This document shows, in pieces, positions 32,889-53,459 of a stretch of DNA of 64,000 nucleotides. Source of the stretch: Pseudomonas silvicola (GTDB lineage Bacteria; Pseudomonadota; Gammaproteobacteria; Pseudomonadales; Pseudomonadaceae); NCBI RefSeq assembly GCF_026651855.1, contig NZ_CP093280.1:3078001-3142000 (forward strand). The letters are read 5' to 3'. The notes beneath the pieces were generated by a model. It had not been told where the DNA came from and searched no databases. It worked only from the letters and a program-made list of their open reading frames with translations. Each line of letters starts with the position of its first letter. Within the stretch, counting starts at the first letter, position 1. The translations under genes and the position numbers were made by a program.

Positions 32889-32917
32889 ACGTTAGCTGAC
32901 AGTATGTCAGCTAACGT
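32889..32917. promoter_or_regulatory. Predicted TetR operator 1 (perfect 13-3-13 palindrome)
   Basis: ACGTTAGCTGACA, spacer GTA, then TGTCAGCTAACGT: arms fully complementary. It lies 24 bp from the dehydrogenase start and 64 bp from the divergent isochorismatase-like start. It is the best-conserved member of a set of six matching TAGCTGACA-N3-TGTCAGCTA. Confidence 0.8.
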
Positions 32918-32980
32918 TATCTAAGTGTGTTTCTACAATCCCGTTTTTCGTACGCTGAAAGTGCCATCCAGGAGGTGATT

Positions 32981-33595
32981 ATGGTTAGAGGGTTCGAGCG
33001 ATCAAGACGCCCGGCGTTGTTGATCAGTGAATGCCAGCGCGGAGTGATCGACCCTTTGCTGAGTAGTTTTCCCGGCCTTGTCGAGCAGGTGCAGCAACGG
33101 GGCATCCTGCCTCGCATCGGCGTGTTGGCCGACCGCTTTCGCAAGGCCGGCTTACCGGTGATTCACCTGCATGTGGTGCATAAACCTGATTACGCGGACG
33201 TGCCGAAAACCAGTGTGATCATCGTTCGCTCAATCCGGGATCAACGCATGCGTGAAGGGATGGAAGATGTGTTGGCCGTGGATGAAATGCGCCCTCTACA
33301 GGACGACATCGTTCATGCGCGCGGGTTTAGTCTGGTGGCGTTCCACGGTACTGATCTTGATGCCATGTTGCGTCATATGGGCGTGCAGACTCTGGTGCTG
33401 GCCGGAGTTTCGACCAACGTCGCCATCTCCGGTACGGCACTGTGCGGTTCGGATTTGGGTTATCAGGTGTTGATCCCCGAGGACTGTATCGCAGGGGCCA
33501 GCGAAGAGACTCACGCCTTTATCGTGCAAAACCAGTTGCCGCTGTACAGCACAATCACCGACAGCCAGACGCTCATCGATGCGCTGAACGATTGA
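32981..33595 (+). CDS. Isochorismatase-like protein with substituted catalytic residues
   Basis: The 204-aa product starts at ATG 32981 behind GGAGGTG. It has the isochorismatase/cysteine-hydrolase fold: ALLISECQRGV at residue 12, LVAFHGTDLDAMLRHMG near 115 and LAGVSTNVAISGTAL near 140. The usual triad is not seen: the Asp of LxxxDxQ is Glu, and the nucleophile Cys position in GVSTNxx is Ala. It may therefore be a non-hydrolytic homologue, or use other residues. Its 3' end overlaps that of the convergent crotonase gene by 23 bp. It belongs to the TetR-palindrome regulon; its role there is unknown. Confidence 0.8.
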   Translation: MVRGFERSRRPALLISECQRGVIDPLLSSFPGLVEQVQQRGILPRIGVLADRFRKAGLPVIHLHVVHKPDYADVPKTSVIIVRSIRDQRMREGMEDVLAVDEMRPLQDDIVHARGFSLVAFHGTDLDAMLRHMGVQTLVLAGVSTNVAISGTALCGSDLGYQVLIPEDCIAGASEETHAFIVQNQLPLYSTITDSQTLIDALND

Positions 33596-34331
33596 GTACC
33601 TCAGCCAGCAGCGATTGAGTGTGAGGGGAGGCGAGTTGGGCGATGAACACCTCGTTTTCCTCCTCGATCACCGCCCTCAGTTCAGCGAGGATCTGCTTTC
33701 GCATCATCCGCCGAGTCAGTCGCGCGGCTTGGTCGGGGAGTTCGATCAGGCGCTGTGCATGGGTCATCGCTGCGTTGATGCACGCTTGGCCGGTGATGAC
33801 ACATTCGCTGGCCAGCCCCCACTCCAACGCCTGCGCCCCGGAAATGGTTTCACCCAGCACCAGCAAATGCGCGGCGCGGGCATGGCCGAGCAGTTGGGGC
33901 AGGAGCAGTGAGGAGCCGAATTCGGGGGTCAAACCCAGTTTTACGAAAGGGGTACGCAGTTTCGCGTCATGGGTTGTGACGACGTGATCGCAGTGCAACA
34001 ACAAGGTGGTGCCAATGCCAATCGCAGGTCCGCAAACGGCCGCAATCAGCGGTTTATCGAGCTCGATCACGGCATGCATGAAGGTGAATGCAGGGCTTGA
34101 CTGATGAGTGGGCGGCGCCTGAACAAAGTCGTGTAGATCGTTGCCTGCCGTGAAGCATTGCTCGGAGCCTCGCACGATGACTGTCTTGATGTGCGCGTCG
34201 GCGTTGATCTGGCGCAGCCGCTCCGCCAGTTGCAGGTACATCGCATTGGTCAGGGCGTTGAGTTTTTCGGGGCGATCTAGCGTGAGAACCGCGATGCCGT
34301 TCTGCTGCTCATAGCGAATCGGCTCACCCAT
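33573..34331 (-). CDS. Enoyl-CoA hydratase/isomerase-family protein (ECI-like)
   Basis: This crotonase-fold protein (252 aa from ATG 34331) has oxyanion-hole segments CFTAGNDLHDF near residue 65 and CGPAIGIGTTLLLHCD near 105. The single Glu in TPFVKLGLTPEFGSSLLLP near 135 is the pattern of delta3-delta2-enoyl-CoA isomerases. The chosen start begins MGEPIRYEQQNGIAVLTLDR; the longer frame adds non-family residues. Its start overlaps the end of the aconitase-B-like gene by 8 bp, indicating translational coupling. It is third in the operon with the amidohydrolase. Confidence 0.88.
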   Translation of the reverse strand: MGEPIRYEQQNGIAVLTLDRPEKLNALTNAMYLQLAERLRQINADAHIKTVIVRGSEQCFTAGNDLHDFVQAPPTHQSSPAFTFMHAVIELDKPLIAAVCGPAIGIGTTLLLHCDHVVTTHDAKLRTPFVKLGLTPEFGSSLLLPQLLGHARAAHLLVLGETISGAQALEWGLASECVITGQACINAAMTHAQRLIELPDQAARLTRRMMRKQILAELRAVIEEENEVFIAQLASPHTQSLLAEVLNRSAHR

Positions 34332-34623
34332 GGGCAGCGCGTTCCGTTTTGGCCTCAAGCATGCGTTGGGCCGTGGCGGGGCCAATCAGATTGCAGCGTG
34401 GTGAGCCCTCTACGATTGACTGCAGGAAGGCGTGCTTGAGCGCCTGACTGCGAACGTCGTGCCCAACGTGCTGTTCAAACAGGGCTATCAGGACCGGCTC
34501 CTCAAACGCGGGCGGGTGTTCGAGCAGGAGCAGCAATGCCGCGACCTGCTCTGGCGTCAAAGGACGAGGCTGGACACCCTCGCTATCACATTGGGCAAGG
34601 TGGCACTGGTAGTCATAGAGCAT
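34324..34623 (-). CDS. Free-standing aconitase-B N-terminal (HEAT-like) domain protein
   Basis: The 99-aa product aligns from its first residue with the N-terminal domain of aconitate hydratase B. It shares the pattern MLxxYxxHxA...EGxxPxPL...QxAALxxLL, PPAxEE, AFLxxI and GPATAQRML near its end. AcnB itself is about 860 aa; here the catalytic swivel and iron-sulfur domains are absent and nothing upstream or downstream encodes them, so this is a domain on its own, not a truncated gene. In AcnB this segment mediates dimerisation and iron-dependent RNA binding. GGAG lies 7 nt before the ATG. It sits between the amidohydrolase and crotonase in one operon. Its role here is unknown. Confidence 0.8.
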   Translation of the reverse strand: MLYDYQCHLAQCDSEGVQPRPLTPEQVAALLLLLEHPPAFEEPVLIALFEQHVGHDVRSQALKHAFLQSIVEGSPRCNLIGPATAQRMLEAKTERAAHG

Positions 34624-34716
34624 GGTCAGTCTCCTGGACGGTTCTCATCAAGGACTCGCATCTAGCCCTGACGCACAAGAACTGACGGCAGGCGTCGGCC
34701 CTTGTGCGTCGGCTAA

Positions 34717-36051
34717 TCAGGCGTTTTCGGCGGTGAGTTTGCCGTCTTCCTGAGAGACCTTGGTGAACATGGCGATGATGTCGCCGGAGGTCACGCAGCG
34801 GCGTGTTTCGCCTTCAGCCAAGGGCGCCGGGCCACCGTAGGACTTGGCGCTGGTGTCGACATGACGAGCCTGATTGCGAAGCGCCGACACGGTGCAGTTT
34901 TCCCGCCCGCCCATCATGGCGAAGGCATCGAAGCTATACAGGCGCAGCGCGTTGCCGTGGGTGATCTTGTCGATACTGCGCTGTGGCAGCCCTTGCAGTG
35001 AGTTGAGCAGCATGTCTGCCGATTCGGGCCAGATCGTGTCCGAGTGGGGGTAGTCGCACTCGTAGGCGACGTTGTCTTCGCCGATCTCATCGAGGTTTTT
35101 GATGCCGAAGCGGTCGTCGATGAAGCAGGTCAGGAAGTGCTCGCGGAACACCTCGCTCGGCTTCTTCTTGCCAAAGTCAGCGTAGGTCCAGGCCTTGTGA
35201 TGCTCGTGTACAAAATCGGCACGTTCAAGGAAGTACGGAATCCAGCCGATGCCGCCTTCGGACAGCGCGATCTTAAGGTCCGGGTAGCGTTGCAGCGCCT
35301 TGAGGTGCAGCCAGTCGGCTGCCGAATTGACGATGGAAATCGGCATGGTCACGATCCAGGCATCGATCGGTGATTGTTGCGAGGCGTGGGGGGCTTGGGC
35401 GCCTGAGCCGATGTGAATGTTGATCATGACCTTATTTTCGGCGCACACCTTCCACAGAGGTTCCCAGTGCGCATCATGAATGCTGGGTTGGCCCTTCAGA
35501 GACGGGTTGTCCGAGAACGAGATGGCGTGACAGCCCTTGGCGACCACGCGCTTGATTTCCGCGACTGTGGCATTGATGTCCCAGTAGGGCACGATGGCGT
35601 TGGGAATGTTGCGCCCTGGGTAACTGCCACACCACTCATCGATGTGCCAATCGTTGTAGGCGCGTAGTAGGGTCAGCGCGTTTTGTTTGTTGTCGAACTG
35701 ATGAAACAGGCTGCCGTCGAACGTGACGACACTGGGGAAGTTGATCGAGGCCAGCAGGCCATTGGCATTCATGTCCTCGATACGCGCATCGATGTCCCAC
35801 GCGCCTTTGCGCATCTGATCGAAGGAAATGGGTTCGCACCCGTACTCCTCACGTAAGCGGCCGACCACGGCATTGAGACCAATGTTGCCGGCGCGACGCC
35901 CCTCGAAGAGCCAGTAGTCGGCACCGTTCTTGTCCTTCAACACTCGGGGGGCGAAGGCTTTTTGCGCCGTGGTCAGGTGTTGTTCGAACATCGTCGGCGG
36001 CTCGACAATGTGGTCGTCAACGCTCACCAGAATCAGGTCATCCAGTTTCAT
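34717..36051 (-). CDS. Amidohydrolase-family (ACMSD-like) TIM-barrel protein
   Basis: The 444-aa protein opens with LILVSVDDHIVEPPTMFEQHL, the metal-binding DxH of the amidohydrolase_2 group. Further ligand-bearing segments follow: INIHIGSG (His) near 220, ALSEGGIGWIPYFLERAD near 275, and YECDYPHSDTIWPES (Asp) near 340. This group contains decarboxylases and hydrolases such as ACMSD and resorcylate decarboxylase. Close relatives are common in actinobacterial steroid and terpenoid clusters, though their reactions are mostly unproven. It leads the operon with the AcnB-like and crotonase genes, 125 bp downstream of a TetR-type palindrome. A 10-bp inverted repeat (34670-34710) lies after its stop. 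Confidence 0.85.
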   Translation of the reverse strand: MKLDDLILVSVDDHIVEPPTMFEQHLTTAQKAFAPRVLKDKNGADYWLFEGRRAGNIGLNAVVGRLREEYGCEPISFDQMRKGAWDIDARIEDMNANGLLASINFPSVVTFDGSLFHQFDNKQNALTLLRAYNDWHIDEWCGSYPGRNIPNAIVPYWDINATVAEIKRVVAKGCHAISFSDNPSLKGQPSIHDAHWEPLWKVCAENKVMINIHIGSGAQAPHASQQSPIDAWIVTMPISIVNSAADWLHLKALQRYPDLKIALSEGGIGWIPYFLERADFVHEHHKAWTYADFGKKKPSEVFREHFLTCFIDDRFGIKNLDEIGEDNVAYECDYPHSDTIWPESADMLLNSLQGLPQRSIDKITHGNALRLYSFDAFAMMGGRENCTVSALRNQARHVDTSAKSYGGPAPLAEGETRRCVTSGDIIAMFTKVSQEDGKLTAENA

Positions 36052-36196: not shown

Positions 36197-36213
36197 ATGG
36201 GTTGTTGTTGAGC

Positions 36214-37455
36214 TCAGGCAGCGACTGTCGTCGACAATTCCTTGAGACTGACGCACTCGTCACCCAGATGCGTGGCAATGCCCCTGGCAGACGCCTGCAC
36301 CAGCTTTTTGATAGCGGCAAACTCTTGCATGCGGTTAATGCAGTCGGCAGCGATCAGCGTATCGCCGCGTAGATAAAACGCGACGAAGGAGTGCAGGGCA
36401 ATGGAGCCGCGAATCACCACCTGATCGTAACCCTGGCTCAAGCCTGCGATTTGCAGCTTGAGGTCGTATTGGTCCGACCAGAACCACGGCGCTGCAGGCG
36501 GCACAGTGGGTTTTCCGGTCAGGGCCAGTGCAAGGTTGCGGGCGTGTTCGCTGGCGTTGGGAATGGACTCCAGCCGCACATGGCGTTGGTAGCGGCTGCT
36601 GAATCGATTGCAGCAATCGCCCACTGCGTAGACACCGGGCATGACCTGCCCGGTGTGTTCGTCAGCCAGAATGCCGTTATCGATTGGGAGTCCGGATGCT
36701 GCGGCCAATTCAACGTTAGGCTGCGCACCAATGCCCACTAGCATCAGATCGGCAGCGATCCGTTCGCCGGTGGCTGTGACCAGCTCGCAAACATTGCCCG
36801 CATCGTCCAGTTGCACACCGTCCAGCTGTGTATCCAGCCGTAGGTCGACACCTGCGGCACGGTGCACATGGGCATAGAAATGTGACACCTCAGTGGCCGT
36901 AACCCTGGCCAGCACCCGCTCCTGGGATTCCAGCACGGTAACCCTGAGACCTCGCTGCACGGCGGCGGCTGCGACTTCAAGGCCGATGTAGCCGCCACCG
37001 ACAATCACCAGTCGCTGTCCTTCGCGCCACTGGCTGCGCAGGCCCGTTGCATCCTGCACGTGACGAAGGTAGTGCAGGTTCGCAGCGCGGTGTTGCCCCA
37101 AACCCCTCAGTTGCAAGGGGCGAGGGCTGCACCCGGTGGCGAATACCAGTTGGTCGAACTGCAGGGGTGGCTGACCTTCCAGATGCACTTCGCGGTTCGC
37201 GGTGTCGACCCGCAGGGCGCGGGTGTCCAGCCGCAATTCGATACCCGCTTGAGCGTAGGCACTTTGCGGGCGGATTTCGCTCGCCTGCGGATCGCTGGCC
37301 AGCAGAAACGCTTTTGACAGCGGCGGGCGCTGGTAGGGCAGGTGCGCCTCATCGCCAATCAGGACAATGCGCCCTGTATAACCTTGCTGTCGCAATGCGA
37401 TGGCGGTTTCGCTGCCCGCATGACCTGCGCCAATGATCGCCGTCAGATGTGTCAT
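36214..37455 (-). CDS. FAD-dependent rubredoxin/ferredoxin reductase
   Basis: The 413-aa pyridine-nucleotide-disulfide-type reductase starts at ATG 37455 behind GGAGG. It carries the FAD motif IIGAGHAGSETAIALRQQG (residues 6-25), the NAD(P) motif VIVGGGYIGLEVAAAAVQRG near 150 and the second FAD motif GVYAVGDCCNR near 275. The C-terminal domain is like that of putidaredoxin and rubredoxin reductases. It lies 17 bp after a rubredoxin gene, its evident electron acceptor. The pair delivers electrons from NAD(P)H to an oxygenase; none is encoded in this window. Confidence 0.9.
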   Translation of the reverse strand: MTHLTAIIGAGHAGSETAIALRQQGYTGRIVLIGDEAHLPYQRPPLSKAFLLASDPQASEIRPQSAYAQAGIELRLDTRALRVDTANREVHLEGQPPLQFDQLVFATGCSPRPLQLRGLGQHRAANLHYLRHVQDATGLRSQWREGQRLVIVGGGYIGLEVAAAAVQRGLRVTVLESQERVLARVTATEVSHFYAHVHRAAGVDLRLDTQLDGVQLDDAGNVCELVTATGERIAADLMLVGIGAQPNVELAAASGLPIDNGILADEHTGQVMPGVYAVGDCCNRFSSRYQRHVRLESIPNASEHARNLALALTGKPTVPPAAPWFWSDQYDLKLQIAGLSQGYDQVVIRGSIALHSFVAFYLRGDTLIAADCINRMQEFAAIKKLVQASARGIATHLGDECVSLKELSTTVAA

Positions 37456-37472
37456 GGCATCCTCCATTTGGC

Positions 37473-37640
37473 TCAGGCCATTTCCAGCATGGCGAAGTCT
37501 TCTTTGGTGGCTCCGCATTCAGGGCATAGCCAGTCCTCAGGCACCTCGGCCCATGGGGTGCCAGGGAGGATGCCGTCGTCCGGCATGCCCAAGGCTTCGT
37601 CATAAATAAAGCTGCAGAAAAAACATTGCCACTTCTTCAT
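37473..37640 (-). CDS. Rubredoxin
   Basis: A 55-aa protein beginning [20 protein letters not shown] contains both iron ligands pairs, CFFC at residues 6-9 and CPECG near 39-43, plus the conserved [12 protein letters not shown] segment between them. It binds one iron by four cysteines and carries single electrons. It is shorter than the usual gene-finding cut-off. It sits directly upstream of its reductase and downstream of the MaoC and SDR genes in one operon. AlkG-type rubredoxins serve AlkB hydroxylases, but no AlkB is present here. Confidence 0.92.
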
Positions 37641-39170: not shown

Positions 39171-39191
39171 TAACTGTCAATATGTCAGCTA
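39171..39191. promoter_or_regulatory. Predicted TetR operator 3 (also autoregulatory)
   Basis: TAACTGTCA-ATA-TGTCAGCTA lies between the divergent SDR operon and the TetR gene. The right arm is a perfect consensus half-site; the left has two mismatches. Its position implies control of the operon and possible autoregulation. Confidence 0.7.
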
Positions 39192-39372: not shown

Positions 39373-40122
39373 ATGGCTTACGATGTCACGATGAATAAGC
39401 AAGGGCAGGTGCTGGGCCGCAAAGGCCAGGAAACCCGCCACAAATTGATGATGGCAACCCGCAGATTGCTCTTTACCCACCCGCTGGTCGATATCACGGC
39501 GGTCGCGATCGCTAAAGCCGCCGGTACCTCGTCCGCGAGCTTTTACATGTACTTCGACGACGTCCAGGACGTGCTGTACGCCTTGGGGCTGGTGGCCAAC
39601 GAAGACATGGCCGAGGTCGCCAAGTTGCTCGAAACGCCTTGGGCACCCGGAACGTTCGAAAAGGAAGCGCTGGTGCTGATTGAAGCGCTGAATGCGGTCT
39701 GGAGCCGTCATCGGGAAGTACTGCGCTATCGCAATCTGGAAGCGGACCGAGGCGACCCACGCTTCGACGAGTTGCGCATGAACACCTATATCCCGTTCAT
39801 CGAGCGTTTCGCCAAGCTGATCCTGGCCGTCAACCCTGCCGAGGGCGGGCGCAAGCGCGGCGACGCTTACGCAGAAGCAACCGCACTGCATGCCTCCATG
39901 GAGAGGATGGCCGCGACCGACCCCGTGTTGATGGAGCGTGGTTTGGGCGCCAAGCGGGTGAATGCGGCGATTGCGCGAATTATCGCGCAGACTTTGCGGG
40001 GTTCGAATGAAGAGCCGGTTGTGCCCGTCACCACCGCCACACCGGCAGCCGCCAAGGCGCGTCGTGCCAAGGCAACGCCAGAATCTTCAGAGGCTGTTCC
40101 CGCGCCCCAGAATCAAGAATGA
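39373..40122 (+). CDS. TetR-family transcriptional regulator, probable master of the 30-54 kb regulon
   Basis: The 249-aa protein carries an N-terminal TetR helix-turn-helix at about residues 18-65 (GRKGQETRHKLMMATRRLLF, ITAVAIAKAAGTSSASFYMYF). It is followed by a helical ligand domain and an Ala/Pro/Lys-rich C-terminal tail. ATG 39373 follows GAGGGG at 8 nt. It is divergent from the MFE-2-like SDR operon with a 21-bp palindrome in between; five matching palindromes stand before the other operons. It is the only regulator between 30 and 54 kb. The ligand is probably an acyl-CoA intermediate, as for KstR-type regulators; that is inference. Confidence 0.9.
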   Translation: MAYDVTMNKQGQVLGRKGQETRHKLMMATRRLLFTHPLVDITAVAIAKAAGTSSASFYMYFDDVQDVLYALGLVANEDMAEVAKLLETPWAPGTFEKEALVLIEALNAVWSRHREVLRYRNLEADRGDPRFDELRMNTYIPFIERFAKLILAVNPAEGGRKRGDAYAEATALHASMERMAATDPVLMERGLGAKRVNAAIARIIAQTLRGSNEEPVVPVTTATPAAAKARRAKATPESSEAVPAPQNQE

Positions 40123-40141
40123 GCTGAGTGCTGGCGAAAGG

Positions 40142-40984
40142 TCAGTCCAGGGGATCGAAATGCGCGACCCCCTGGCTGAGCACGGGCTGGTCGCGCTCCA
40201 CGGCGTGCAGGCGGAACACAACCTGGCCCGCCGTGATATGCCACAGCTCAAGGCGCATGGTTTCATCGGTGTACATGGGGCCTGCGTAACGCACGGCGAT
40301 TTTCTTCAGTCGTTGCGGGTGATTGTCACAGCTCAGGGCAATCACACCTCGCCCGGCGAGACCAAAACACCCCAACCCACGAATCATGATCTTCTCTGTG
40401 CCTTTGCCGATATTGATGTCGGCGTTCAAGCGAAACGCCGAATGCGGATCCTGCGGCGTTTTGATTTCGATTGTCGCGTCGGCAGCGCGTTGTGGAATCG
40501 GCGCCAGATGTGGTCGGTTGTTTGGTTGCCCGCCGAAGCCGCCGTTACCGCGCAACAACGTACTGACCTCGATACTGGCGATCGGTCCCTGTGCGTCACT
40601 CAATTCTAAGTTCTGGAGCATCTGGGCACCTTTATCGCTGCCCCGGTCGAAAATGTCCGCCACTTTTTGCGTCACCCGTACCCGGCCTGAGCTGGGCAGC
40701 GGCCGATGCAATGCCAGGCTTTCCTGCACGTGTACCAATTGCCGCCAGTCGATACCGGTGGCCGGATCTTGCTGCCAGAACTCACCATCGGCCAAGGCTA
40801 CGGCCGCCATGGGTAACGCCTGCAGCGTGGTGTCCGGACGCAAATACGGTGCGTCGACGGTCGCCCACGCGCTGTCAACGCCGGCACCGAATCCCTTGGC
40901 GAAGTGGACCAGGTCTTGGGTAGTGTAATCTCGATCAATGGGCGGGAAGGGCCAGGCCATCAGTTTTGCGTAGTCAAGCGGCAT
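40142..40984 (-). CDS. MaoC/hydratase-2-like protein lacking the active-site motif
   Basis: The 280-aa protein is a paralogue of the hydratase at 41869, sharing the same length, double-hot-dog layout and N-terminus (MPLDYAKLMAWPFPPIDRDY versus SLDYQKIKDWPLPQTRHTY). Where the neighbour has YRLSGDSNPLHIDP and the following PILHG, this protein reads FRLNADINIGKGTEKIMIRG. The catalytic His and the whole HIDPxFA stretch are missing and the sequence is shortened there. It ends 19 bp from the convergent TetR gene. GGAG lies before the ATG. It may form a heteromer with the intact paralogue, as in ChsH1-ChsH2 of cholesterol catabolism. Confidence 0.88.
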   Translation of the reverse strand: MPLDYAKLMAWPFPPIDRDYTTQDLVHFAKGFGAGVDSAWATVDAPYLRPDTTLQALPMAAVALADGEFWQQDPATGIDWRQLVHVQESLALHRPLPSSGRVRVTQKVADIFDRGSDKGAQMLQNLELSDAQGPIASIEVSTLLRGNGGFGGQPNNRPHLAPIPQRAADATIEIKTPQDPHSAFRLNADINIGKGTEKIMIRGLGCFGLAGRGVIALSCDNHPQRLKKIAVRYAGPMYTDETMRLELWHITAGQVVFRLHAVERDQPVLSQGVAHFDPLD

Positions 40985-41054
40985 CTTGCACTCCGGGGCA
41001 AATGCAGGGCGTTAGGGGAGTGAGCGTTGCCGCCTGAGCGGCAACGCACGACGG

Positions 41055-41855: not shown

Positions 41856-41868
41856 GTGGGGTCTCCTG

Positions 41869-42796: not shown

Positions 42797-42817
42797 AAGC
42801 TGTCAAATAGTCAGTTA
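42797..42817. promoter_or_regulatory. Predicted TetR operator 4
   Basis: AAGCTGTCA-AAT-AGTCAGTTA in the divergent gap between the hydratase operon and the SDR-thiolase operon. A half-site TGACAGCTA at 42926-42934, 14 bp before the SDR start, may be a second contact. Confidence 0.65.
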
Positions 42818-43811: not shown

Positions 43812-43836
43812 GCGCCCGGTGCGCGTGGAGGTTCGG

Positions 43837-45024: not shown

Positions 45025-45083
45025 GCGAAGCTCCGGCAGGCGCGGCCTGCCGGGGCCTGGTCCCTGAACGGTAAGGATTGAAC

Positions 45084-45650: not shown

Positions 45651-46018
45651 AAGCGCTCGGCAGTACCACTGCACGGATCCAGATCAAGAACCTGCGATTG
45701 CGAACCTACATCGGCATCAACGAAGAGGAGATCCGTAATCGTCAGGATGTGGTGATCAACCTGGTGCTCGAATACCTCGCCGATCAGGTGACCCACAGTG
45801 AATCCATCGAACACGCGGTGAACTATCGCACGCTGACCAAGGCGGTGATCCGCCATGTAGAGCGCAACCGTTTTGGACTGCTGGAGCGTCTGGCGCAGGA
45901 AGTGCTGGACGTGCTGATGAACCATCCTCAGGTATCGCTGGCGCAGGTCGAGATCGACAAACCCCATGCCTTGCGGTTTGCCGACTCGGTGTCGGTGACG
46001 CTCTGCGCGATGCGCTGA
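45647..46018 (+). CDS. folX: Dihydroneopterin triphosphate 2'-epimerase (FolX-type)
   Basis: The 123-aa protein matches FolX more closely than Fol[15 protein letters not shown]-like start, [40 protein letters not shown] and [13 protein letters not shown]. FolX epimerises dihydroneopterin triphosphate to the monapterin form, the precursor of tetrahydromonapterin used by bacterial phenylalanine hydroxylase. Its start overlaps the folE stop (ATGA). The reductase FolM, which completes the cofactor, is not among the SDRs in this window. It ends 57 bp from a convergent dehydrogenase gene. Confidence 0.92.
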
Positions 46019-46075: not shown

Positions 46076-47125
46076 TCAGTCCAGTGGTCGGGTGACGCGC
46101 TGCCACAGGGTCGCACCCTCTGCGGCCAGGGTGTTACGCCCCAGATACTCCGCCCAATAATGTTCGCTGCCACCCTCGGCACGCCACTGCCACAGCCGAC
46201 GCGTGAAGTAGTGCAAACTGTGTTCATCGGTCACCCCAATGGCGCCGAAAATCTGGTGGGCGATTTCCGTCATGCGGGTCGCGGCACGGCCTGTGAGGCT
46301 CTTGGCGATGGCTGCGCCATATTCCGCGCGATCGGCGTCGATCTGACGGGCTGCGTATAACCCGGCAACCTGGGCTGCTGCCGTGTGTTCCGCTAGCTCG
46401 GCGACGTACTGCTGGATCGCCTGAAATTTGCCCAGTGTTTTCCCGAACTGAATGCGCGTTCCAGCGTACTCCAGACAGAGGTCGAGCACCTGCTCCATGG
46501 CACCGGCCATCTGGATGGCCCGTAATGCCGCCAGATAAGGGCGTAAATCAGCACCCTTTAGCCAAGGCACCGACCGCGCTAGCGTGACCGGCTGACCCTT
46601 CAATTTCAGCGCGCCAGCGGGCATGCGGTCATAGGTTGGGGTAGCGGTTGCCAGTTCGCTGTCGATGCTCACCAGGCAGAGGCTGGGTTGTTCGACCGTG
46701 CCCGCCAGAAGCACCACATGGCGGACTGCTGGTGACCAGGACAGCTGCTGATCCACTCCGTGCACACGCCCCTGGGCATCGAGTTCAAAACGCTCGGCTG
46801 AAAATGTCATCGGGCCGTCCGGCACTGCGATGCCTGCACGGTCGAGCAAACCGCTGGCGATCACGCTTTCGCCCAATGGAATGGGGGCTGCATAGCGTCC
46901 ACACAGGCGCAAGGTCTGTTCCATATCACGCCAGGACATTTCGGCGCCGCCGGTGGATTCGCTGCACATGGCCAAGGGAATGCCCATTGCCACCAGCGAC
47001 TGCCACAGCTCGGTGTCAAACTGTCCTTGTTCACTGGCTACCCAACTGTCACGGGAAACGGCGTCGGCAAACAGCCTGTTCACCTGATGGGCCATCATCT
47101 CGCTAATGTTCATTTCGTCGCTCAT
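46076..47125 (-). CDS. Acyl-CoA dehydrogenase family protein, small subunit type
   Basis: The 349-aa protein is a divergent acyl-CoA dehydrogenase. It has a weak N-terminal domain, no SEPxxGSD signature in the middle, and a recognisable C-terminal FAD region (RIQFGKTLGKFQAIQQYVAE near 235, HQIFGAIGVTDEHSLHYFTR near 300). Shortened, motif-poor subunits of this kind pair with a regular subunit in alpha2beta2 steroid dehydrogenases such as ChsE1-ChsE2. Its start overlaps the stop of the regular subunit gene by ATGA, supporting a stoichiometric complex. Confidence 0.88.
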   Translation of the reverse strand: MSDEMNISEMMAHQVNRLFADAVSRDSWVASEQGQFDTELWQSLVAMGIPLAMCSESTGGAEMSWRDMEQTLRLCGRYAAPIPLGESVIASGLLDRAGIAVPDGPMTFSAERFELDAQGRVHGVDQQLSWSPAVRHVVLLAGTVEQPSLCLVSIDSELATATPTYDRMPAGALKLKGQPVTLARSVPWLKGADLRPYLAALRAIQMAGAMEQVLDLCLEYAGTRIQFGKTLGKFQAIQQYVAELAEHTAAAQVAGLYAARQIDADRAEYGAAIAKSLTGRAATRMTEIAHQIFGAIGVTDEHSLHYFTRRLWQWRAEGGSEHYWAEYLGRNTLAAEGATLWQRVTRPLD

Positions 47126-48282
47126 TTCAGGCCCAGCCCCTTGGCCGTGATACCGCGCAATATTTCCCGGGTGCCTCCGCGCAACGAGAAGCTGGGAACG
47201 GTGTGCACCAGGAACCCCAATAGTTCGCTGAGCGTGTTGCCCTTGACCACCGTGGCGGGAGGGTCCAGCAGTTCGCGCACCAGCTCTGGCATGCGCTGCT
47301 CATGCAGGTTGCCAAGATCCTTGACCAGCGCCGCTTCGCGGGAAGGCGAATGGCCGTCGACCAGTTGCCCGAGTATCGACAATGACATCTCCCTGAGGAT
47401 GACCAGCTCGGCCTCGGCTTCACCCAGTCGCCGGGCTACCATGCGCTCCTGCGGGCCAGCGGCGCGCAAGGCGTCGACCGTCAATGGCAGCAACGGGTAG
47501 GCACTCATGTAGCGATCCGGCTGGCTGCGTTCGAAGGCCAGTTCCGCGCTGGCTTGCGCCCAACCGTCGCCTTCCTGTCCCACCAGCATGTCATCCGGCA
47601 CGAACACGTCGTCAAATGTGACCTCGTTGAAATGAGCCTCGCCGGTCAGGTCTTTGATCGGTCGCACCTCAATCCCTGAGCTGCGCATGTCGATCAAAAA
47701 CTGCGACAACCCTTTGTGTTTTTCTACTTCCGCCGGGCCGCCGCTGCGAAACAACCCGATCATGAAATCGCAGAGGTGTGCGTTGGTGGTCCAGACCTTG
47801 CGCCCGTTGAGGCGCCATCCACCCTCCACGCGACTGGCACGTGATCGCAGGGAGGCCAGGTCGGAGCCTGCGTCAGGTTCGCTCAAGCCAATACAAAATG
47901 ACGCTTCACCTTTGGCGATCATCGGTAGAAACCGCTGGCGTTGCGCCTCGCTGCCGAGTCGCAGCAGCAAGGGCCCGCTCTGGCGATCACCAAACCAGTG
48001 AGCGCCGAGGGGGGCGCCGGCCGCGAGCATTTCTTCGACGACCACATAGCGCTCAAGCCCAGAGCGCTCATGCCCGCCGTATTGACGTGGCCAGGTCATG
48101 CCGATCCAGCCACGCTGTCCGACTTGTCGACTGAATTCTCGATCAAAGCCAGTCCACGAGTGGCCTATTTGCCAGCCGGACCACTGGCTCGATGCGTCCG
48201 CGAGAAAGCGCCTGACGTCCTGGCGCAATGGTTCGAGCCGTGCGGGAATTTCCAGGGGCCTGAAATTAAACAGTGCTGACAT
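47122..48282 (-). CDS. Acyl-CoA dehydrogenase, large subunit type
   Basis: The 386-aa protein has the full architecture: FCIGLSEPDAGSDLASLRSRAS near residue 130, GRKVWTTNAHLCDFMI near 160 and a C-terminal domain ending SLRGGTREILRGITAKGLGL. GAGGA lies 7 nt before the ATG. It is translationally coupled to the smaller, motif-poor subunit gene and together they probably form a heteromeric FAD dehydrogenase. It follows a CoA-transferase gene by 10 bp in a five-gene operon. Confidence 0.92.
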   Translation of the reverse strand: MSALFNFRPLEIPARLEPLRQDVRRFLADASSQWSGWQIGHSWTGFDREFSRQVGQRGWIGMTWPRQYGGHERSGLERYVVVEEMLAAGAPLGAHWFGDRQSGPLLLRLGSEAQRQRFLPMIAKGEASFCIGLSEPDAGSDLASLRSRASRVEGGWRLNGRKVWTTNAHLCDFMIGLFRSGGPAEVEKHKGLSQFLIDMRSSGIEVRPIKDLTGEAHFNEVTFDDVFVPDDMLVGQEGDGWAQASAELAFERSQPDRYMSAYPLLPLTVDALRAAGPQERMVARRLGEAEAELVILREMSLSILGQLVDGHSPSREAALVKDLGNLHEQRMPELVRELLDPPATVVKGNTLSELLGFLVHTVPSFSLRGGTREILRGITAKGLGLK

Positions 48283-48292
48283 GCCCGTTTCC

Positions 48293-49528
48293 TCAAATAA
48301 CGTGGTTGCAACGCAAATCGCTGATCTGCTCAGGGGAGAGGTTCAGCCATTGACTCAGCACTTCGTCGGTGTGCTCACCGACCGTGGGAGGTGCGTAGGT
48401 GTACTGCACCGGAGTCGCTGAAAAGCGCATGGGGCTCGCTGCCGAGCGAATCGTTCCGTTGAGTGGGTGGTGCTGGGTGACGATCGACTCCCTGGCCTTC
48501 ACATGGGGGTCTCGTTCCAGATCGGCCATGTCGTTGATCGGTCCGCACGAGACCGTGTTGGCGTTCAGGTGTTCGATCCATTGATCTTTGCTGCGCCCAC
48601 GCAACGCTTCAGTCAACTGCCGTGACAGCTCGCTACGATAAGCGACCCGTGCGGCGTTCCGCGCGAACCGCGGATCGTCGATCCAGTCTGCGCGCCCGAC
48701 GGCGTTGGCCAGGCGTACAAATTCGCGGTCGTTGAACGTGGCCACCAGGATGTAGCCATCGTCCACCGCGTACACCCCATAAGGCGAGGCGCTGGGGTGG
48801 TCGTTGCCGGTACGGCCCAGTTCCTTGCCGCCGTTGAACCAGGCCGAAAACGTGTTGAGCAACGTCGCCATCTGAGCATCCATCAGCGACACATCGATGT
48901 GCTGGCCGACGCCGCTGGCGTGGCGGTGGTTGAGCGCGCCCAGGACGCCAATCGCCGCGTACAGACCCGCGCAGACGTCCGCGACCGGGATGCCCACGCG
49001 CATCGGCCCTTCGCCGTCTTCGCCGGGGCGGTGGCCGGTGACCGACATGACGCCCGCCATGGCCTGGATCAGGTAGTCATACCCGGACCGCTCGGCGTAG
49101 GGGCCGGTCTGGCCAAACCCGGTGATCGAACAGTAGATCAGGCGTGGATTGATCTTGCTCAGTTCCTCGTAGCCCAGCCCGTAGCGCGCCAGCGTGCCGG
49201 TGCGGTAATTCTCCAGCAGTACGTCACAGCTTTCGGCGAGCTGTCGAATCAGCTCCTGACCTGCAGGCTGCGCGAAGTCGATGGCGATCGATCGCTTGTT
49301 GCGGTTAGCGGCCTGGCTGTAGGTCGACTCTTGATGGGCCTGGCCTTCGGTGCCGCTGATCCAGGGCGGGCCGATGCGGCGAATGTCGTCGCCTTCGCCC
49401 TGGCGTTCTATCTTGATGACCTCGGCGCCCATGTCGCCCAGGATTTGCCCCGCGAAAGGTCCGGCGACCACACGGGTCATGTCCAGCACGCGAATGCCCG
49501 ACAGTGCTTGTGGATGTGGGTTGTGCAT
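48293..49528 (-). CDS. CaiB/BaiF-family (type III) CoA-transferase
   Basis: The 411-aa protein shows the family start LSGIRVLDMTRVVAGPFAGQ (residues 9-28), AEVIKIERQGEGDD, the catalytic Asp in VSLMDAQMATLLNTF near 220, and RYGLGYEELSKINPRLIYCS. It moves CoA between carboxylates and thereby activates the pathway acid without ATP. ATG 49528 follows GAGGG at 8 nt; the track back to 49747 would overlap the SDR gene. BaiF-type members act on bile acids, carnitine, formate or aromatic acids, so the substrate is open. Confidence 0.92.
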   Translation of the reverse strand: MHNPHPQALSGIRVLDMTRVVAGPFAGQILGDMGAEVIKIERQGEGDDIRRIGPPWISGTEGQAHQESTYSQAANRNKRSIAIDFAQPAGQELIRQLAESCDVLLENYRTGTLARYGLGYEELSKINPRLIYCSITGFGQTGPYAERSGYDYLIQAMAGVMSVTGHRPGEDGEGPMRVGIPVADVCAGLYAAIGVLGALNHRHASGVGQHIDVSLMDAQMATLLNTFSAWFNGGKELGRTGNDHPSASPYGVYAVDDGYILVATFNDREFVRLANAVGRADWIDDPRFARNAARVAYRSELSRQLTEALRGRSKDQWIEHLNANTVSCGPINDMADLERDPHVKARESIVTQHHPLNGTIRSAASPMRFSATPVQYTYAPPTVGEHTDEVLSQWLNLSPEQISDLRCNHVI

Positions 49529-49539
49529 GGCGAACGCCC

Positions 49540-50313
49540 TCAGACAGTAATGGTGTAGCCGCCGTTGACCGACAGCACCTGGCCGGTGATGTAGGAGGCG
49601 CCTTCGCTGAGCAGGAAGCCGACAGGCACCGCAACTTCCTCGGGGCTTGCGAAGCGACCGAGTGCGATTTGTTGAAGGTAGGTGTCGAGAAATTTCGGGT
49701 CGCTGCGGACTTTCTCGGTCATAGCGGTTTCCACCATGCCGAAGCACACAGCGTTAGAACGAATGCCATAGCGCGCCCATTCCCGAGCGGCGGTCATGGC
49801 CATGCCGAACATGCCTGATTTCGCGGCAGAGTAGTTGATCTGCCCCAGGCTGCCGCGCCGCCCCGCGTCGGAGGAGATGAACACAATGGCGCCGGGGGCC
49901 TTGTCGCCGCTCTTGGCGCGTTCGATCAAATGCCGCCCCAGCGCCTGGGTGAACAGGAAGGACCCGGTAAGGTGCACCTCCAGTACTTGCTGCCATTGTT
50001 CGAGGGTCATTTTTTCGATCATCGCCGGGCGGCCGATGCCGGCGTTGTTGACCAGACCGTGCACGGCACCGAAGCGGGCGATGGATTGGGTGATGACCTG
50101 TTCGGCAAATTGCGCGTCGACCACGTTGCCCGCGAAAGGCAGGTAGCGTTCGCCCAGTTCTTGCGCAGCGGTCTGCAAGATGCCGGCGTCAAGATCGACC
50201 GCGGCGACGTTCGCACCTTGTGCCAGAACGAACCTGGCAATGGCCAGTCCGATGCCCTGGCCTGCGCCGGTGATGATGATCGTACGTCCCTGCAGGGACA
50301 TTGGATTGTTCAT
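49540..50313 (-). CDS. SDR-family oxidoreductase
   Basis: The 257-aa classical SDR carries TGAGQGIGLAIARFVLAQGA near residue 14, NNAGIGRPAMIEKM near 90, the Ser in VFISSDAGRRGS and YSAAK near 160, and ends SVNGGYTITV like FabG-type enzymes. It lies between the DUF35 gene (19 bp gap) and the CoA-transferase (11 bp gap) in the operon. It probably oxidises a hydroxyl group of a pathway acyl-CoA or free acid; substrate unknown. Confidence 0.9.
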   Translation of the reverse strand: MNNPMSLQGRTIIITGAGQGIGLAIARFVLAQGANVAAVDLDAGILQTAAQELGERYLPFAGNVVDAQFAEQVITQSIARFGAVHGLVNNAGIGRPAMIEKMTLEQWQQVLEVHLTGSFLFTQALGRHLIERAKSGDKAPGAIVFISSDAGRRGSLGQINYSAAKSGMFGMAMTAAREWARYGIRSNAVCFGMVETAMTEKVRSDPKFLDTYLQQIALGRFASPEEVAVPVGFLLSEGASYITGQVLSVNGGYTITV

Positions 50314-50332
50314 GTGTAGGGTCTGCCTTTTG

Positions 50333-50704
50333 TTATTCGAAGTGATCAGGGTCAAACACGACAAAGAACCGCTCGGCGTCGCGGTTGATCCGCGCACGGA
50401 CGCGCTGGCCGATCTTCACGCTGTCTGCGGGTGTGCATTCGACCCGACTCATCATTCGCGGGCCTTCCGCCAAATCCACCAGCACCACGTTGTAAGGTTC
50501 GGCAGGGGGCTTGGGACGGACCACGGTGATGGCGTAAACCGTGCCCAGACCGCTGGCCTGCACCCATTCGAGGTCCAGGGCGCCGGAACCCGGCTCAAGC
50601 GTGCGCGGGTAGAAAAAACAGCGCTGGCTGGCGCGGCTGCGCTGCAGCATGAAACGGCCTTGGGCCAGGTGTTCCTGAAATTCTGCGTCGGGTCGTAACG
50701 GCAT
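50333..50704 (-). CDS. DUF35 OB-fold protein, zinc-ribbon cysteines lost
   Basis: The 123-aa protein matches the DUF35/OB-fold acyl-CoA-binding family: GRFMLQRSRASQRCFFYPRT near residue 15, then LEWVQASGLGTVYAITVV and PYNVVLVDLAEGPRMMSRV. The family normally has a rubredoxin-like CxxC...CxxC ribbon in this part. Here only a single Cys is present, so zinc binding is unlikely. DUF35 proteins partner with SCPx/Ltp thiolases (for example ChsH2 with Ltp2); the thiolase at 43837 in the same regulon is the natural candidate. It opens the operon, 121 bp from a TetR-type palindrome. Confidence 0.85.
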   Translation of the reverse strand: MPLRPDAEFQEHLAQGRFMLQRSRASQRCFFYPRTLEPGSGALDLEWVQASGLGTVYAITVVRPKPPAEPYNVVLVDLAEGPRMMSRVECTPADSVKIGQRVRARINRDAERFFVVFDPDHFE

Positions 50705-50824: not shown

Positions 50825-50845
50825 TAACTGTCAAACAGTCAGCTA
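50825..50845. promoter_or_regulatory. Predicted TetR operator 5
   Basis: TAACTGTCA-AAC-AGTCAGCTA between the divergent DUF35 operon and the MFS gene. Extra partial half-sites (TAACTGACA at 50752-50760 region and TAGCTGATA/TCTCAGCTA near 50771-50794) suggest more than one bound dimer. Confidence 0.7.
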
Positions 50846-50901: not shown

Positions 50902-52152
50902 ATGGACGATTCACGTTTCACTGATTCACTTTGGGCACCGTTGCGCTTTCCCGCGTTTCGCTGGCTATGGCTGGGCGCCCTGGCCATGAACCTGGCAATC
51001 TGGATGCAAAGCGTGGGCGCCGCTTGGGTCATGGTGTCGCTGACGACTTCTCCGTTGCTGGTGGCGCTGGTGCAAACCGCGATCAGCTTGCCCTCATTTC
51101 TGTTTGGACTGCCGGGCGGGGTGTTCGCCGATGTGTTTGACCGGCGTAACTATTTGCTGGTGACTCACAGTGCGATGCTGGCGAGTGCGGTGGTGCTGGT
51201 GATCTGTTGCGCCCTCGGCTGGCTTGGCCCGTGGACGCTGCTGTTTCTGACTTTTGCTTTCGGCATCGGTTTTGCGATGCAAGGCCCGGCCTGGTACACC
51301 AGCCAGGCCGAGTCGGTGCCCATGGCTTTCATGGGTTCTGCGATGGCGTTGTCATCGGTGTCCTACAGCTCGGCGCGCGCGGTTGGTCCGGCGATTGCCG
51401 GGGGGCTGGTCAGCGTTTCGGGCGTGACGATGGTTTTCGCGGCGTGCGGGTTGCTCCTGAGTGGATCCTTGCTTGCGGTCATGACGCTGCGTTCGCCGCC
51501 GCGTGATACGTCGGCACCGGCGCAAACCCTGCGCTCCGGCCTGGCGGGAGCGGTGAGTTTTGCGCGTAACTCGCGGGTGATTCGCGATCAAAGCCTGCGC
51601 ACTGTGGCCTTCGTCGGTGCGGGCAGCGCGCTGTGGGCGTTGCTACCGGTGGTGGCCAGTGAGTCGGCGGGCGCTGGTGGTTACGGCATGCTGTTGGGGA
51701 GCATCGGTGCCGGTACGCTGTTCGGCGCGCTGGTGATCACCGGGCTGCGTCAGCGCATGGGGATCAACGGAATGTTGGCGCTGGCGTGCGCCGCCTACAC
51801 GCTGGGCACAGTGGTCCTGGCATTGATCTCGGACGTGTGGCTGCAAGCCCCGGCGCTGTTTCTGGCGGGGATTGGCTGGATGCTGATTGGCACCAGTAAT
51901 CTGGCAGCCATTCAGATGGCGGTGCCCTCTCATGTGCGGGCGCGTTCTGTGGCGATCTACATGCTGGTGTTTCAGGGGTCGATGGCCATCGGAGGGGCGT
52001 TTTGGGGGCTGGTCGCTATTCAGACTGGTACTCGCATTGCGTTGTTGCTTGCGGCGGCGATGACGGTGTTCGCGCTGTGGGTGATGTACCGACTGGCGAT
52101 CCCGGCGGCATCGTCCAGCAGTGACGCTGCGCTTGAGCCTTCTGCTCGTTGA
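50902..52152 (+). CDS. MFS transporter, EntS/DHA3-like exporter group
   Basis: The 416-aa membrane protein has 12 predicted helices. It begins FPAFRWLWLGALAMNLAIWM, and its loop motif GGVFADVFDRRNYLLVTH is typical of the MFS_3 group with enterobactin exporter EntS. ATG 50902 is preferred because AGGA lies 8 nt upstream, and the nearest alternative ATG at 50845 abuts the TetR palindrome. Regulation together with the catabolic genes suggests efflux of an intermediate or toxic substrate rather than uptake. Confidence 0.82.
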   Translation: MDDSRFTDSLWAPLRFPAFRWLWLGALAMNLAIWMQSVGAAWVMVSLTTSPLLVALVQTAISLPSFLFGLPGGVFADVFDRRNYLLVTHSAMLASAVVLVICCALGWLGPWTLLFLTFAFGIGFAMQGPAWYTSQAESVPMAFMGSAMALSSVSYSSARAVGPAIAGGLVSVSGVTMVFAACGLLLSGSLLAVMTLRSPPRDTSAPAQTLRSGLAGAVSFARNSRVIRDQSLRTVAFVGAGSALWALLPVVASESAGAGGYGMLLGSIGAGTLFGALVITGLRQRMGINGMLALACAAYTLGTVVLALISDVWLQAPALFLAGIGWMLIGTSNLAAIQMAVPSHVRARSVAIYMLVFQGSMAIGGAFWGLVAIQTGTRIALLLAAAMTVFALWVMYRLAIPAASSSSDAALEPSAR

Positions 52153-52163
52153 CCCGCAGAAAG

Positions 52164-52190
52164 AAAAAAAGCCCGCAGCGAGCTGCGGGC
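52164..52190 (-). terminator. Rho-independent terminator after the second amidohydrolase
   Basis: Stem GCCCGCAG/CTGCGGGC with a 4-nt loop (52171-52190), followed on the minus strand by a run of seven T (52164-52170). It sits between the convergent amidohydrolase and MFS genes and may also end the plus-strand transcript weakly. Confidence 0.85.
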
Positions 52191-52219
52191 CAAGAGGAGC
52201 GTGTCGTTAGCGTGGTGTT

Positions 52220-53410
52220 TCAGTCGCGGTGGCCTTCGAGCAGGCCCTTGAGGTTCGTGCTCATGATCAGTTGGGTGTCTTGCGGGCTGAGGTCTTCGAT
52301 GTCCTTGAAGAAATCCAGTGGATGAGTCAGCCCTTCAGGATGCGGCCAGTCGCTGCCAAACAGGATGCGATTGGCGCCGATCAACTCGATGACCTTGGAC
52401 ACTGGGTCTTCGTAGAACGGCGAAACAAAGACGTGTTTGCGGAATGTTTCGACGGGATCGCGCGTGAACGATTTGGGCATTTTCTTGTAGTTGTGCGCCA
52501 GGCGGCCCAGCAGCGGCTCAAGCCAGGATGAGCCGTTTTCCAGTGAGGCAACACGTACGTCCGGGAAACGGTCGAACACACCGTGGCAGATGAGGGCGGC
52601 CAGAGTGTCCGAGATCGCCCGGCCCATCCAGTCCAGGACTTCGCCGAAGACATCTTTTTCGAATGGGCGGAATTCCCCTTTGCCGCCCGCCGTCCACCAG
52701 CGATAGACCTTGTCGTAGCCAGAGTCGGAGACGTGCAGCATCACGAAGATCTTCGCTTCGTTGACGCGGGCCCAGAACGGGTCGAACTCGGTGAAGCCCA
52801 TCGAGCGACCGCCTTTGATCCCGGCCACCGGGGCAGGGCGTATGCCGACGACCCGTGCACCTGACTTAATCACGAACTCCAGCTCTTCGACGGCCTGGTC
52901 AACGTCGTAAAGGTTGATCATCGGCACCGGGAACAGTCGGTTATCCCGGGCAAACCCACAGTCTTCAGCCAGCCATTGGTTAGCGGAGTGGAACAGGGCA
53001 GCAATCGCTTCCGGTTTGTGCGCGAGGCGCTCTTCGATCACCGAACCCAGGGTCGGGATGAACAACCCGGCATGAATGCCTTGCTCGTCCATCACTTTCA
53101 GGTGTGCCTCACCGCTGTAGAAGGCTGGATCGGACGGGATCGGTTCACCGCCAATTTCACGCAGGGACAGTCCCTGCGGGTTGTCGCCGCGGTACCACTT
53201 CTCATGGGAGCCCGGTGCCGCTACGACGTCGAAGGTCGGGTTGGGGATGTAGTCGCTGATGATGCCGCCCACCGCCAGCTTCGTCCGACCGTTGATTTGC
53301 ACGTACTGGAAGTCCTTGCGGAACTCCTTGGGCAGATGCCGCAGGAAGGCTTCCGGCGGCTCGTAAAAATGGCGGTCAACATCGTAGATCGGGTAATTGA
53401 CGGCACTCAT
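52220..53410 (-). CDS. Amidohydrolase-family (ACMSD-like) protein, second copy
   Basis: The 396-aa TIM-barrel protein starts with YPIYDVDRHFYEPPEAFLRH (DxH variant with Arg-His), followed by FVMLHVSDSG (His) near 225, LICHGVFDRFPDVRVASLEN near 270 and ILFGSDWPHPEGLTHP (Asp) near 350. These are the metal-binding strands of amidohydrolase_2. It is only distantly similar to the copy at 34717. GGAG precedes the ATG. It is divergent from an SDR gene across a TetR-type palindrome and is transcribed alone to the terminator. Decarboxylase or C-C hydrolase activity is possible; nothing specific can be claimed. Confidence 0.86.
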   Translation of the reverse strand: MSAVNYPIYDVDRHFYEPPEAFLRHLPKEFRKDFQYVQINGRTKLAVGGIISDYIPNPTFDVVAAPGSHEKWYRGDNPQGLSLREIGGEPIPSDPAFYSGEAHLKVMDEQGIHAGLFIPTLGSVIEERLAHKPEAIAALFHSANQWLAEDCGFARDNRLFPVPMINLYDVDQAVEELEFVIKSGARVVGIRPAPVAGIKGGRSMGFTEFDPFWARVNEAKIFVMLHVSDSGYDKVYRWWTAGGKGEFRPFEKDVFGEVLDWMGRAISDTLAALICHGVFDRFPDVRVASLENGSSWLEPLLGRLAHNYKKMPKSFTRDPVETFRKHVFVSPFYEDPVSKVIELIGANRILFGSDWPHPEGLTHPLDFFKDIEDLSPQDTQLIMSTNLKGLLEGHRD

Positions 53411-53438
53411 GGAATGCTCCTTTTGGTTTTGTTGTTCA

Positions 53439-53459
53439 AAGCTGACGATATGTCAGCTA
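53439..53459. promoter_or_regulatory. Predicted TetR operator 6
   Basis: AAGCTGACG-ATA-TGTCAGCTA in the divergent gap between amidohydrolase (start 53410) and SDR (start 53541); the right arm is the perfect consensus half-site. It is the rightmost member of the set. Confidence 0.75.

Follow-up and report, generated by a model that had tools for sequence, protein, structure and literature searches.

A TetR-family regulator and a recurrent palindrome as the proposed switch and operator of a 78-kb catabolic island in Pseudomonas silvicola

Within a window of 64,000 nucleotides from the Pseudomonas silvicola genome (C1:3078001-3142000, where C1 is contig NZ_CP093280.1; genome of 8.65 Mb on three contigs), a 21-bp palindrome recurs in the promoter regions around a gene for a TetR-family regulator, here called TetR1. 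We propose, with a probability of about 0.85, that this palindrome is the operator of TetR1 and that TetR1 controls a 78-kb catabolic island at C1:3108553-3186801; the figure covers operator, regulator and island, with the substrate excluded. The six palindromes of the original prediction were all found at the positions it had given, each with a 3-bp spacer. It had further described them as intergenic and mostly divergent, which agrees with our gene calls: all six are intergenic and five lie between divergent genes, while the one at 36176-36196 lies in a co-directional gap. The sites and their proposed regulator are listed here by window position. Scores come from a weight matrix that was built from other species because training on the same sites was to be avoided; it holds 27 sites (19 distinct) from nine of eleven named loci of Pseudomonas, Stutzerimonas and Halopseudomonas, L020 and L021 having been dropped as near copies of L018.

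32889..32917 (21-bp core 32893-32913): operator 1, a perfect 29-bp palindrome between the divergent genes for an acyl-CoA dehydrogenase fusion and an isochorismatase-like protein; 24.2 bits
36176..36196: operator 2, upstream of the amidohydrolase-family gene AmH1, co-directional gap; 31.5 bits, position kept in 11 of 11 named loci
39171..39191: operator 3, gap between a short-chain dehydrogenase/reductase (SDR) gene and TetR1, proposed autoregulatory site, minus-strand TTGACA; 29.6 bits, kept in 11 of 11 named loci
42797..42817: operator 4, divergent gap between MaoC and SDR genes, minus-strand TTGACA; 28.1 bits, kept in 11 of 11 named loci
50825..50845: operator 5, divergent gap between OB-fold and MFS genes, minus-strand TTGACA; 27.4 bits
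53439..53459: operator 6, divergent gap between a second amidohydrolase-family gene, AmH2, and an SDR gene; 21.0 bits
61314..61334: weak, tentative operator-like site in the divergent gap between alpha/beta-hydrolase and MFS genes; 14.8 bits, below the two best control scores of 16.9 and 15.6
39373..40122, plus strand: TetR1, TetR-family regulator of 249 amino acids (aa), proposed repressor of the regulon, named from a TetR_C_38 match, a structural model and homologues

Operators 2 to 6 have arms of the type TAACTGACA-N3-TGTCAGTTA around the 3-bp spacer. The consensus TAGCTGACA-N3-TGTCAGCTA, with up to three mismatches, matched five places in the window against 0.01 expected from 100 shuffles; the site at 42797-42817 departs from it at four positions, yet scores 28.1 bits with the matrix from other species. 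Across the genome, the consensus with at most three mismatches was found at eight places, all within one 76-kb stretch (C1:3110893-3186900), and its reversed-pattern control at none. A second pattern gave seven places, all in the same stretch, with one control match, and a third, looser one gave 19, of which 14 are in the locus, including all ten with one or two mismatches. The inner core CTGAC-N5-GTCAG, with one mismatch allowed, proved unspecific (286 genome matches versus 169 in the control).

A 200-kb stretch was first scanned with another weight matrix. Beyond the window, the matrix from other species revealed nine more sites of at least 16.5 bits, at window-relative positions 65346, 68471, 71746, 75872, 78741, 90912, 91049, 101569 and 108880 (16.5-25.8 bits), so that the count of six was an undercount set by the window edge. 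The locus holds 14 matches of at least 17.2 bits, whereas 320 kb of control sequence (16 stretches elsewhere in the genome, L044-L059, the 2-kb L043 being excluded) holds none of 17 bits or more. The original prediction was to be abandoned if many equally good matches turned up inside unrelated genes; none were seen, either genome-wide with the consensus or with the matrix in the control. Judged by its midpoint, no matrix site falls inside a called gene, although the site at 75872 overlaps a start codon by its first base. A role of the regulator as a global one was considered and rejected, since strong matches are confined to one locus.

The placement of the sites is equally telling. From the acyl-CoA dehydrogenase fusion (3108553) to a KshA-like Rieske gene (3186801) the locus spans 78 kb with 70 called genes and 93% coding sequence; the calls were made by a simple script with a minimum of 60 aa, which therefore missed a 55-aa rubredoxin, and the number of genes is approximate. 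Sites above 9 bits occur in 12 of the 12 divergent gaps, none of the 12 convergent ones and 4 of the 46 co-directional ones; raising the threshold to 15 bits leaves 11, 0 and 3. This is how operators behave, unlike terminators or random repeats. The outermost sites mark the ends of the locus, on the left at 32893 before the fused dehydrogenase and on the right at 3186880 before the Rieske gene. The number of genes predicted to be under control, given earlier as about 20, accordingly has to be raised to about 70 over 78 kb by the distribution of the sites.

On the minus strand, one palindrome, at 32889-32917, also resembles a terminator hairpin and has a T run, as might be expected if the palindromes were repeats, terminators or structural elements instead of operators. 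However, presence in all divergent and absence from all convergent gaps is the reverse of what terminators show. Among the four sites within the scanned region 32800-43000 (those at 50825 and 53439 lie outside it) the first alone is terminator-like, and terminator-like matches in this region are at chance level (10 versus 9.3). Copies of a mobile repeat do not fit either: at the three promoters that are syntenic across the named loci, the pairwise identity of the arms is 0.94, 0.94 and 0.87 and that of the flanks 0.27-0.51 (10 distinct rows of 12), so that the arms were kept while the flanks diverged. We consider an explanation of this kind highly improbable, and the terminator or repeat reading was rejected on site placement.

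The link between the palindrome and TetR1 comes from comparison across genomes. TetR1 (open reading frame from 39337) matches TetR_C_38 with 29.6 bits, above the cut-off of 23.9, and TetR_N with 23.2 bits, just below the cut-off of 24; it has 142 homologues at E<=1e-3, and a search of viral contigs found no relative. Operator 3 is located 182 bp before the gene, and a site lies upstream of the TetR1 orthologue in all eleven named loci (67-82% identity), together with two further syntenic sites, at the AmH1 promoter and the MaoC/SDR promoter. In 298 genomes of the same genus, TetR1 (E<=1e-40) was found in five and the motif (at most one mismatch) in eight, which include all five. The motif is thus present in 5/5 TetR1-bearing genomes versus 3/293 others (hypergeometric probability 3e-9; 1e-7 when the studied genome is left out). 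The three stray genomes (G144, G178 and G209) also lack AmH1 at E<=1e-100, and the motif in them looks like chance.

The association extends to more distant relatives. Genome G085 carries a 49% TetR1 homologue, a site about 70 bp from an AmH1 homologue and another (23.9 bits) before the TetR match. The translated match of this TetR homologue (L031) contains one in-frame stop, as does that of the AmH1 homologue at G127:C1:6059506-6060831. On a Massilia plasmid with a 60% TetR1 homologue (L032) the sites in the cluster score 20.5-22.9 bits while the reversed control reaches 4.8, and two related TetR genes (1623-2444 and 20001-20825) each have an operator-like site in front. An Azospirillum plasmid with a 48% homologue has a cluster site of 21.1 bits, with the reversed control reaching 10.4. 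We also scanned these two plasmids and the genomes of six of the eleven named loci for the motif. In the six, sites with no or one mismatch lie on one contig each, the one that bears the site before TetR1, except for one G300 site on another contig; at three mismatches scattered matches appear, likewise in the controls, and the Azospirillum record has a single match, at three mismatches. Taken together, the own-promoter site in 11/11 loci, the distant plasmid clusters and the co-occurrence across 298 genomes support the prediction that one palindrome defines the catabolic regulon of TetR1.

TetR1 is the single TetR regulator of the window, as had been claimed; the whole locus, in contrast, contains three TetR genes and a MarR-like gene:

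C1:3154802-3155425: TetR2, TetR_C_7, by profile match
C1:3184995-3185549: TetR3, TetR_C_24, by profile match
window 59034-59534: MarR-like gene, named from sequence only

The motif could be the operator of TetR2 or TetR3, with TetR1 controlling something else, given that both proteins are encoded within the motif-bearing locus and TetR2 is preceded by a weak site (10.2 bits). TetR2 occurs in four of the five TetR1 genomes and nowhere else among the 298, so always together with the motif. However, in G085, which carries its TetR1 homologue and the motif, TetR2 is missing at E<=1e-30, and TetR3 has matches in four of the 298 genomes, two of them TetR1 genomes and two (G122 and G210) free of the motif. 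In all eleven named loci the TetR1 promoter itself carries a strong conserved site, a comparison across species that was made for TetR1 only. Because of this site and of G085, TetR1 is the best-fitting regulator, and an assignment of the motif to TetR2 or TetR3 appears improbable. These two and the MarR-like gene are possibly switches of sub-pathways.

We hypothesize that a TetR1 dimer occupies one copy of the operator in each divergent promoter region of the island (12 copies, one of them weak) and would thereby hold about 70 genes off, its own included; action as a repressor is presumed from the norm of the family. The operator arms contain CTGACA or TTGACA, and on the minus strand the -35 consensus TTGACA is present at 39171, 42797 and 50825 (TGTCAA on the plus strand), with a promoter-like match at 39180-39151 over operator 3. 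A bound dimer might therefore hide a -35-like hexamer and block RNA polymerase. The claim is limited to overlap with such a hexamer because no convincing -10 boxes were found near the operators and promoter-like matches do not exceed chance. Release of the dimer, by which the whole island would be turned on together, may be brought about by a ligand that, by analogy, is probably a coenzyme A (CoA) thioester of the pathway or a free acid. The AlphaFold model of TetR1 (mean pLDDT, the per-residue confidence score, 87.4; based on TetR1 and 46 of its 142 homologues, 120 of which were listed) has EthR as its best fold match, with DesT bound to palmitoyl-CoA and FadR lower in the list, which makes an acyl-CoA or hydrophobic ligand plausible.

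Several observations weigh against TetR1 as the regulator acting through this operator. With two other TetR genes in the locus, and TetR2 in four of the same five genomes, TetR1 cannot be picked out by co-occurrence alone. The best Azospirillum site lies about 3.6 kb from the TetR gene, outside its promoter. The lines of evidence overlap, as G128 of the 298 genomes is the genome of L017 (Pseudomonas sp. TH41) at the same contig positions, and L018, L020 and L021 are near copies among the eleven named loci. Several sites are weak (9.5-14.8 bits, at window-relative positions 39274, 42914, 61314, 75988, 77539 and 101701), and the looser pattern matches five places outside the locus, each at three mismatches, with 15 matches in its control. 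Finally, promoter-like matches in 32800-43000 number 2 versus 3.1 expected from shuffles, which lends the -35 overlap little weight.

About 40 of the 71 genes of the locus were compared with Pfam, NCBIfam or the PDB, and the others were named from their sequence. The genes in the window are as follows:

30553..32871, minus strand: fused two-part acyl-CoA dehydrogenase; best PDB match Tcur3483, then 4x28
32927..33595, plus strand: isochorismatase-family protein, as an open reading frame; start at 33044 by the gene caller
33573..34331, minus strand: enoyl-CoA hydratase family protein, by family match
34324..34623, minus strand: 99-aa protein with the aconitase-B N-terminal domain only, by domain match
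34717..36051, minus strand: AmH1, Amidohydro_2, probable DitZ/PtmU3-type diiron monooxygenase; 312 bits to DitZ, 104 bits to PtmU3, metal-site columns
36214..37455, minus strand: ferredoxin/rubredoxin--NAD reductase, by family match
37473..37640, minus strand: rubredoxin of 55 aa; PF00301, 72.8 bits
37702..39104, minus strand: MaoC-type hydratase and SDR, by family match
40142..42738, minus strand: MaoC-type hydratase, enoyl-CoA hydratase and MaoC-type hydratase, by family match
42948..46018, plus strand: apparent operon of SDR (MFE-2-like), SCP2-thiolase, folE and folB/folX-family gene, by family matches and synteny
46076..50704, minus strand: apparent operon of two acyl-CoA dehydrogenase parts, CoA-transferase III, SDR and ChsH2-type OB-fold protein; second dehydrogenase part and SDR named from sequence
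50902..52152, plus strand: MFS transporter, by family match
52220..53410, minus strand: AmH2, Amidohydro_2, possible second binuclear-metal enzyme, by metal-site columns
53541..60352, plus strand: SDR, phosphotransferase-like protein, acyl-CoA dehydrogenase, two SDRs, thioesterase-like protein, MarR-like protein and enoyl-CoA hydratase; phosphotransferase by family match, others from sequence

The locus also encodes CoA ligases, CoA transferases, SCP2-type thiolases with OB-fold partners, a reductase of the old-yellow-enzyme type, a DUF1302/DUF1329/YCF48/MMPL transport set and a KshA-type Rieske protein. The gene called AcnB-like in the original prediction does match the aconitase-B N-terminal domain, but its 99 aa hold no more than that domain. 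The folE gene and the folX/folB-family gene (45084-46018) follow the thiolase gene as a pterin-making pair within a CoA catabolic island; folE is kept in nine of the eleven named loci (L020 ends before it, and L019 has no folE there) and folX was matched in five, so that the pair is frequent but not fixed. The studied genome (G000) is larger than all 297 other genomes of the genus listed (largest 7.5 Mb), and its estimated contamination is 8.04%.

The two proteins previously described as amidohydrolases should rather be regarded as candidate diiron monooxygenases, since they keep the metal-site residues of PtmU3 and AibH2, which are amidohydrolase-fold diiron monooxygenases (PMC7782822). In AmH1, which is nearest to DitZ and PtmU3, these residues are D12, H14, H213, E265, D333, H336 and D338. 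An acidic residue after DxPH marks the diiron monooxygenase site (PMC7782822), and the other metal-ligand positions were taken from AmH1 alignments and known motifs of the superfamily. All eight checked columns (metal ligands plus a neighbouring Glu) are conserved in AmH1, in AmH2 and in 119-120 of the 120 AmH1 homologues listed out of 7994. AmH1 is thus probably a monooxygenase of the DitZ/PtmU3 type. AmH2, possibly a second binuclear-metal enzyme, has E at the last position, although its nearest match is the uncharacterised 4dzi (322 bits), with a weak one to PtmU3 (69 bits).

The rubredoxin gene lies between the genes for a MaoC hydratase and the reductase. Since the rubredoxin and reductase genes adjoin AmH1, their position suggests an electron chain for this enzyme. 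AmH1 shares with PtmU3, AibH2 and DitZ (so named in PDB entry 8uyr) the DxH, H, E, DxxH and acidic columns and the encoding of redox partners nearby. It differs in that its candidate partner is a rubredoxin, whereas AibH1H2 uses a Rieske ferredoxin. Homologues of AmH1 are very common (7994 scored matches), and other "amidohydrolases" in such clusters may therefore be oxygenases as well.

Judged from its enzymes, the island probably serves for the uptake of a bulky acid, polycyclic and similar to a terpenoid or steroid, and for its breakdown in the form of CoA thioesters. The catabolic set would comprise two-part acyl-CoA dehydrogenases, MaoC and crotonase hydratases, SDRs, SCP2-type thiolases with OB-fold partners and CoA ligases. 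As oxygenases one might add the KshA-type Rieske protein and the candidate diiron proteins similar to PtmU3 and DitZ, which would receive electrons from rubredoxin and its reductase. Two points count against this assignment: the enzymes from which the substrate class was deduced resemble known ones only distantly, and a genome-wide search for a BphC/HsaC-type extradiol dioxygenase with one model (TIGR03213) gave 56 bits at best versus a cut-off of 366. The second also speaks against a classical steroid such as testosterone or cholate, degraded by the 9,10-seco route under the proposed regulon, as does the lack of a recognised KstD-like gene in the locus, where no search aimed at KstD was made. 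A steroid would fit the KshA_C Rieske protein encoded at one end of the locus (PF19298, 97.4 bits, above cut-off; best PDB match KshA) and the dehydrogenase fusions, whose nearest solved structures, 4x28 and Tcur3483, are enzymes of cholesterol or steroid side-chain degradation. AmH1, however, is nearest to DitZ, a name pointing to diterpenoids, and we regard a classical steroid as unlikely; it was retained as an alternative because the single search for a ring-cleaving enzyme is a weak test.

Somewhat better placed, yet still a tentative choice at less than even odds, is a diterpenoid resin acid or another polycyclic terpenoid acid. The similarity of AmH1 to DitZ and PtmU3 points in this direction, the latter being a beta-hydroxylase of diterpenoid biosynthesis that acts on CoA-ligated substrates (PMC7782822), and so does the transport set, which resembles AmeABCD of a monoterpene degrader. 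But DitZ is only a cousin, since the 120 listed AmH1 homologues score 757-946 bits, and transport sets of this type also occur in other solvent-type regulons (PMC6449761). Moreover, DitA and the P450 DitQ act early in the published dit pathway (PMC13063091), and no DitA-type dioxygenase, DitC or P450 was recognised among the roughly 40 of 71 searched genes and the translations of the locus, the rest of the genome not having been searched for them. Metapseudomonas resinovorans, which has a close TetR1 homologue, does not decide between the two routes, as one strain is reported to grow on testosterone (PMC4810484) and the species to have 10 of 24 dit genes together (PMC10710418).

A more far-reaching proposal, to which we give rather less than an even chance, is that of an undescribed 70-gene pathway for a bulky polycyclic acid, with a site in every divergent promoter and one TetR of a gamma-, beta- and alphaproteobacterial subfamily, in which rubredoxin-driven amidohydrolase-fold diiron monooxygenases would oxidise CoA thioesters beyond ordinary beta-oxidation. 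Under the proposed regulon, about 70 catabolic genes so far unassigned could be tested as a single unit that has a candidate switch and a precisely defined operator, which would also mark pathway genes in other genomes, and the identity of the TetR1 ligand would point to the substrate. Regulation in bile-acid-degrading Proteobacteria is described in a review as largely unknown, with KstR homologues absent there (PMC8399759); should the island act on a steroid-like substrate, a TetR regulon of this size and conservation would fill this gap.

Among known systems, AmeABCD of Castellaniella defragrans (PMC6394551) likewise combines DUF1302, DUF1329, COG4447 and RND genes, within an island for terpene catabolism, but that is a monoterpene island for which export was proposed. 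The dit clusters of Pseudomonas abietaniphila and Paraburkholderia xenovorans (PMC10710418, PMC13063091) are also large and devoted to polycyclic acids, in Pseudomonas as well, but differ in DitA, DitC and DitQ, for which no homologue was recognised here; PMC10710418 contains neither "TetR" nor "DitR", and PMC13063091 no "ditR". EdcR of Caenibius tardaugens (PMC8700777) is, as proposed for TetR1, a TetR repressor of a proteobacterial steroid catabolic cluster, but has the operator TnnCnnTACnAnTnGTAnnGnnA, two operons and a TetR_C_11 domain. Searches by title or abstract opening, with most subscription literature outside their reach, found among the papers listed no report of the TetR1 regulator or operator and none on the DitZ protein, and the listed literature matches to the operator letters were unrelated by title.

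The kind of system is already known, since KstR (Rv3574) of mycobacteria controls 74-83 lipid-catabolism genes through a 14-bp palindrome (PMC1995591), while the TetR1 regulator, its operator and the island did not appear among the papers listed by the searches. Both regulons combine a TetR repressor, a palindromic operator, autoregulation, many sites in divergent gaps and catabolism of lipids or lipid-like compounds, in the case of TetR1 as proposed here. TetR1 was not recognised as a KstR orthologue: the proteins differ, the KstR operator is TnnAACnnGTTnnA and that of TetR1 TAACTGACAnnnTGTCAGTTA, and an NCBIfam scan (E<=0.001) gave BetI only (20.9 bits). Unlike the KstR regulon, that of TetR1 belongs to a Pseudomonas host and has its strong sites confined to one 78-kb locus. 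Under the more far-reaching proposal given above, the KstR regulon would have its counterpart in Proteobacteria here.

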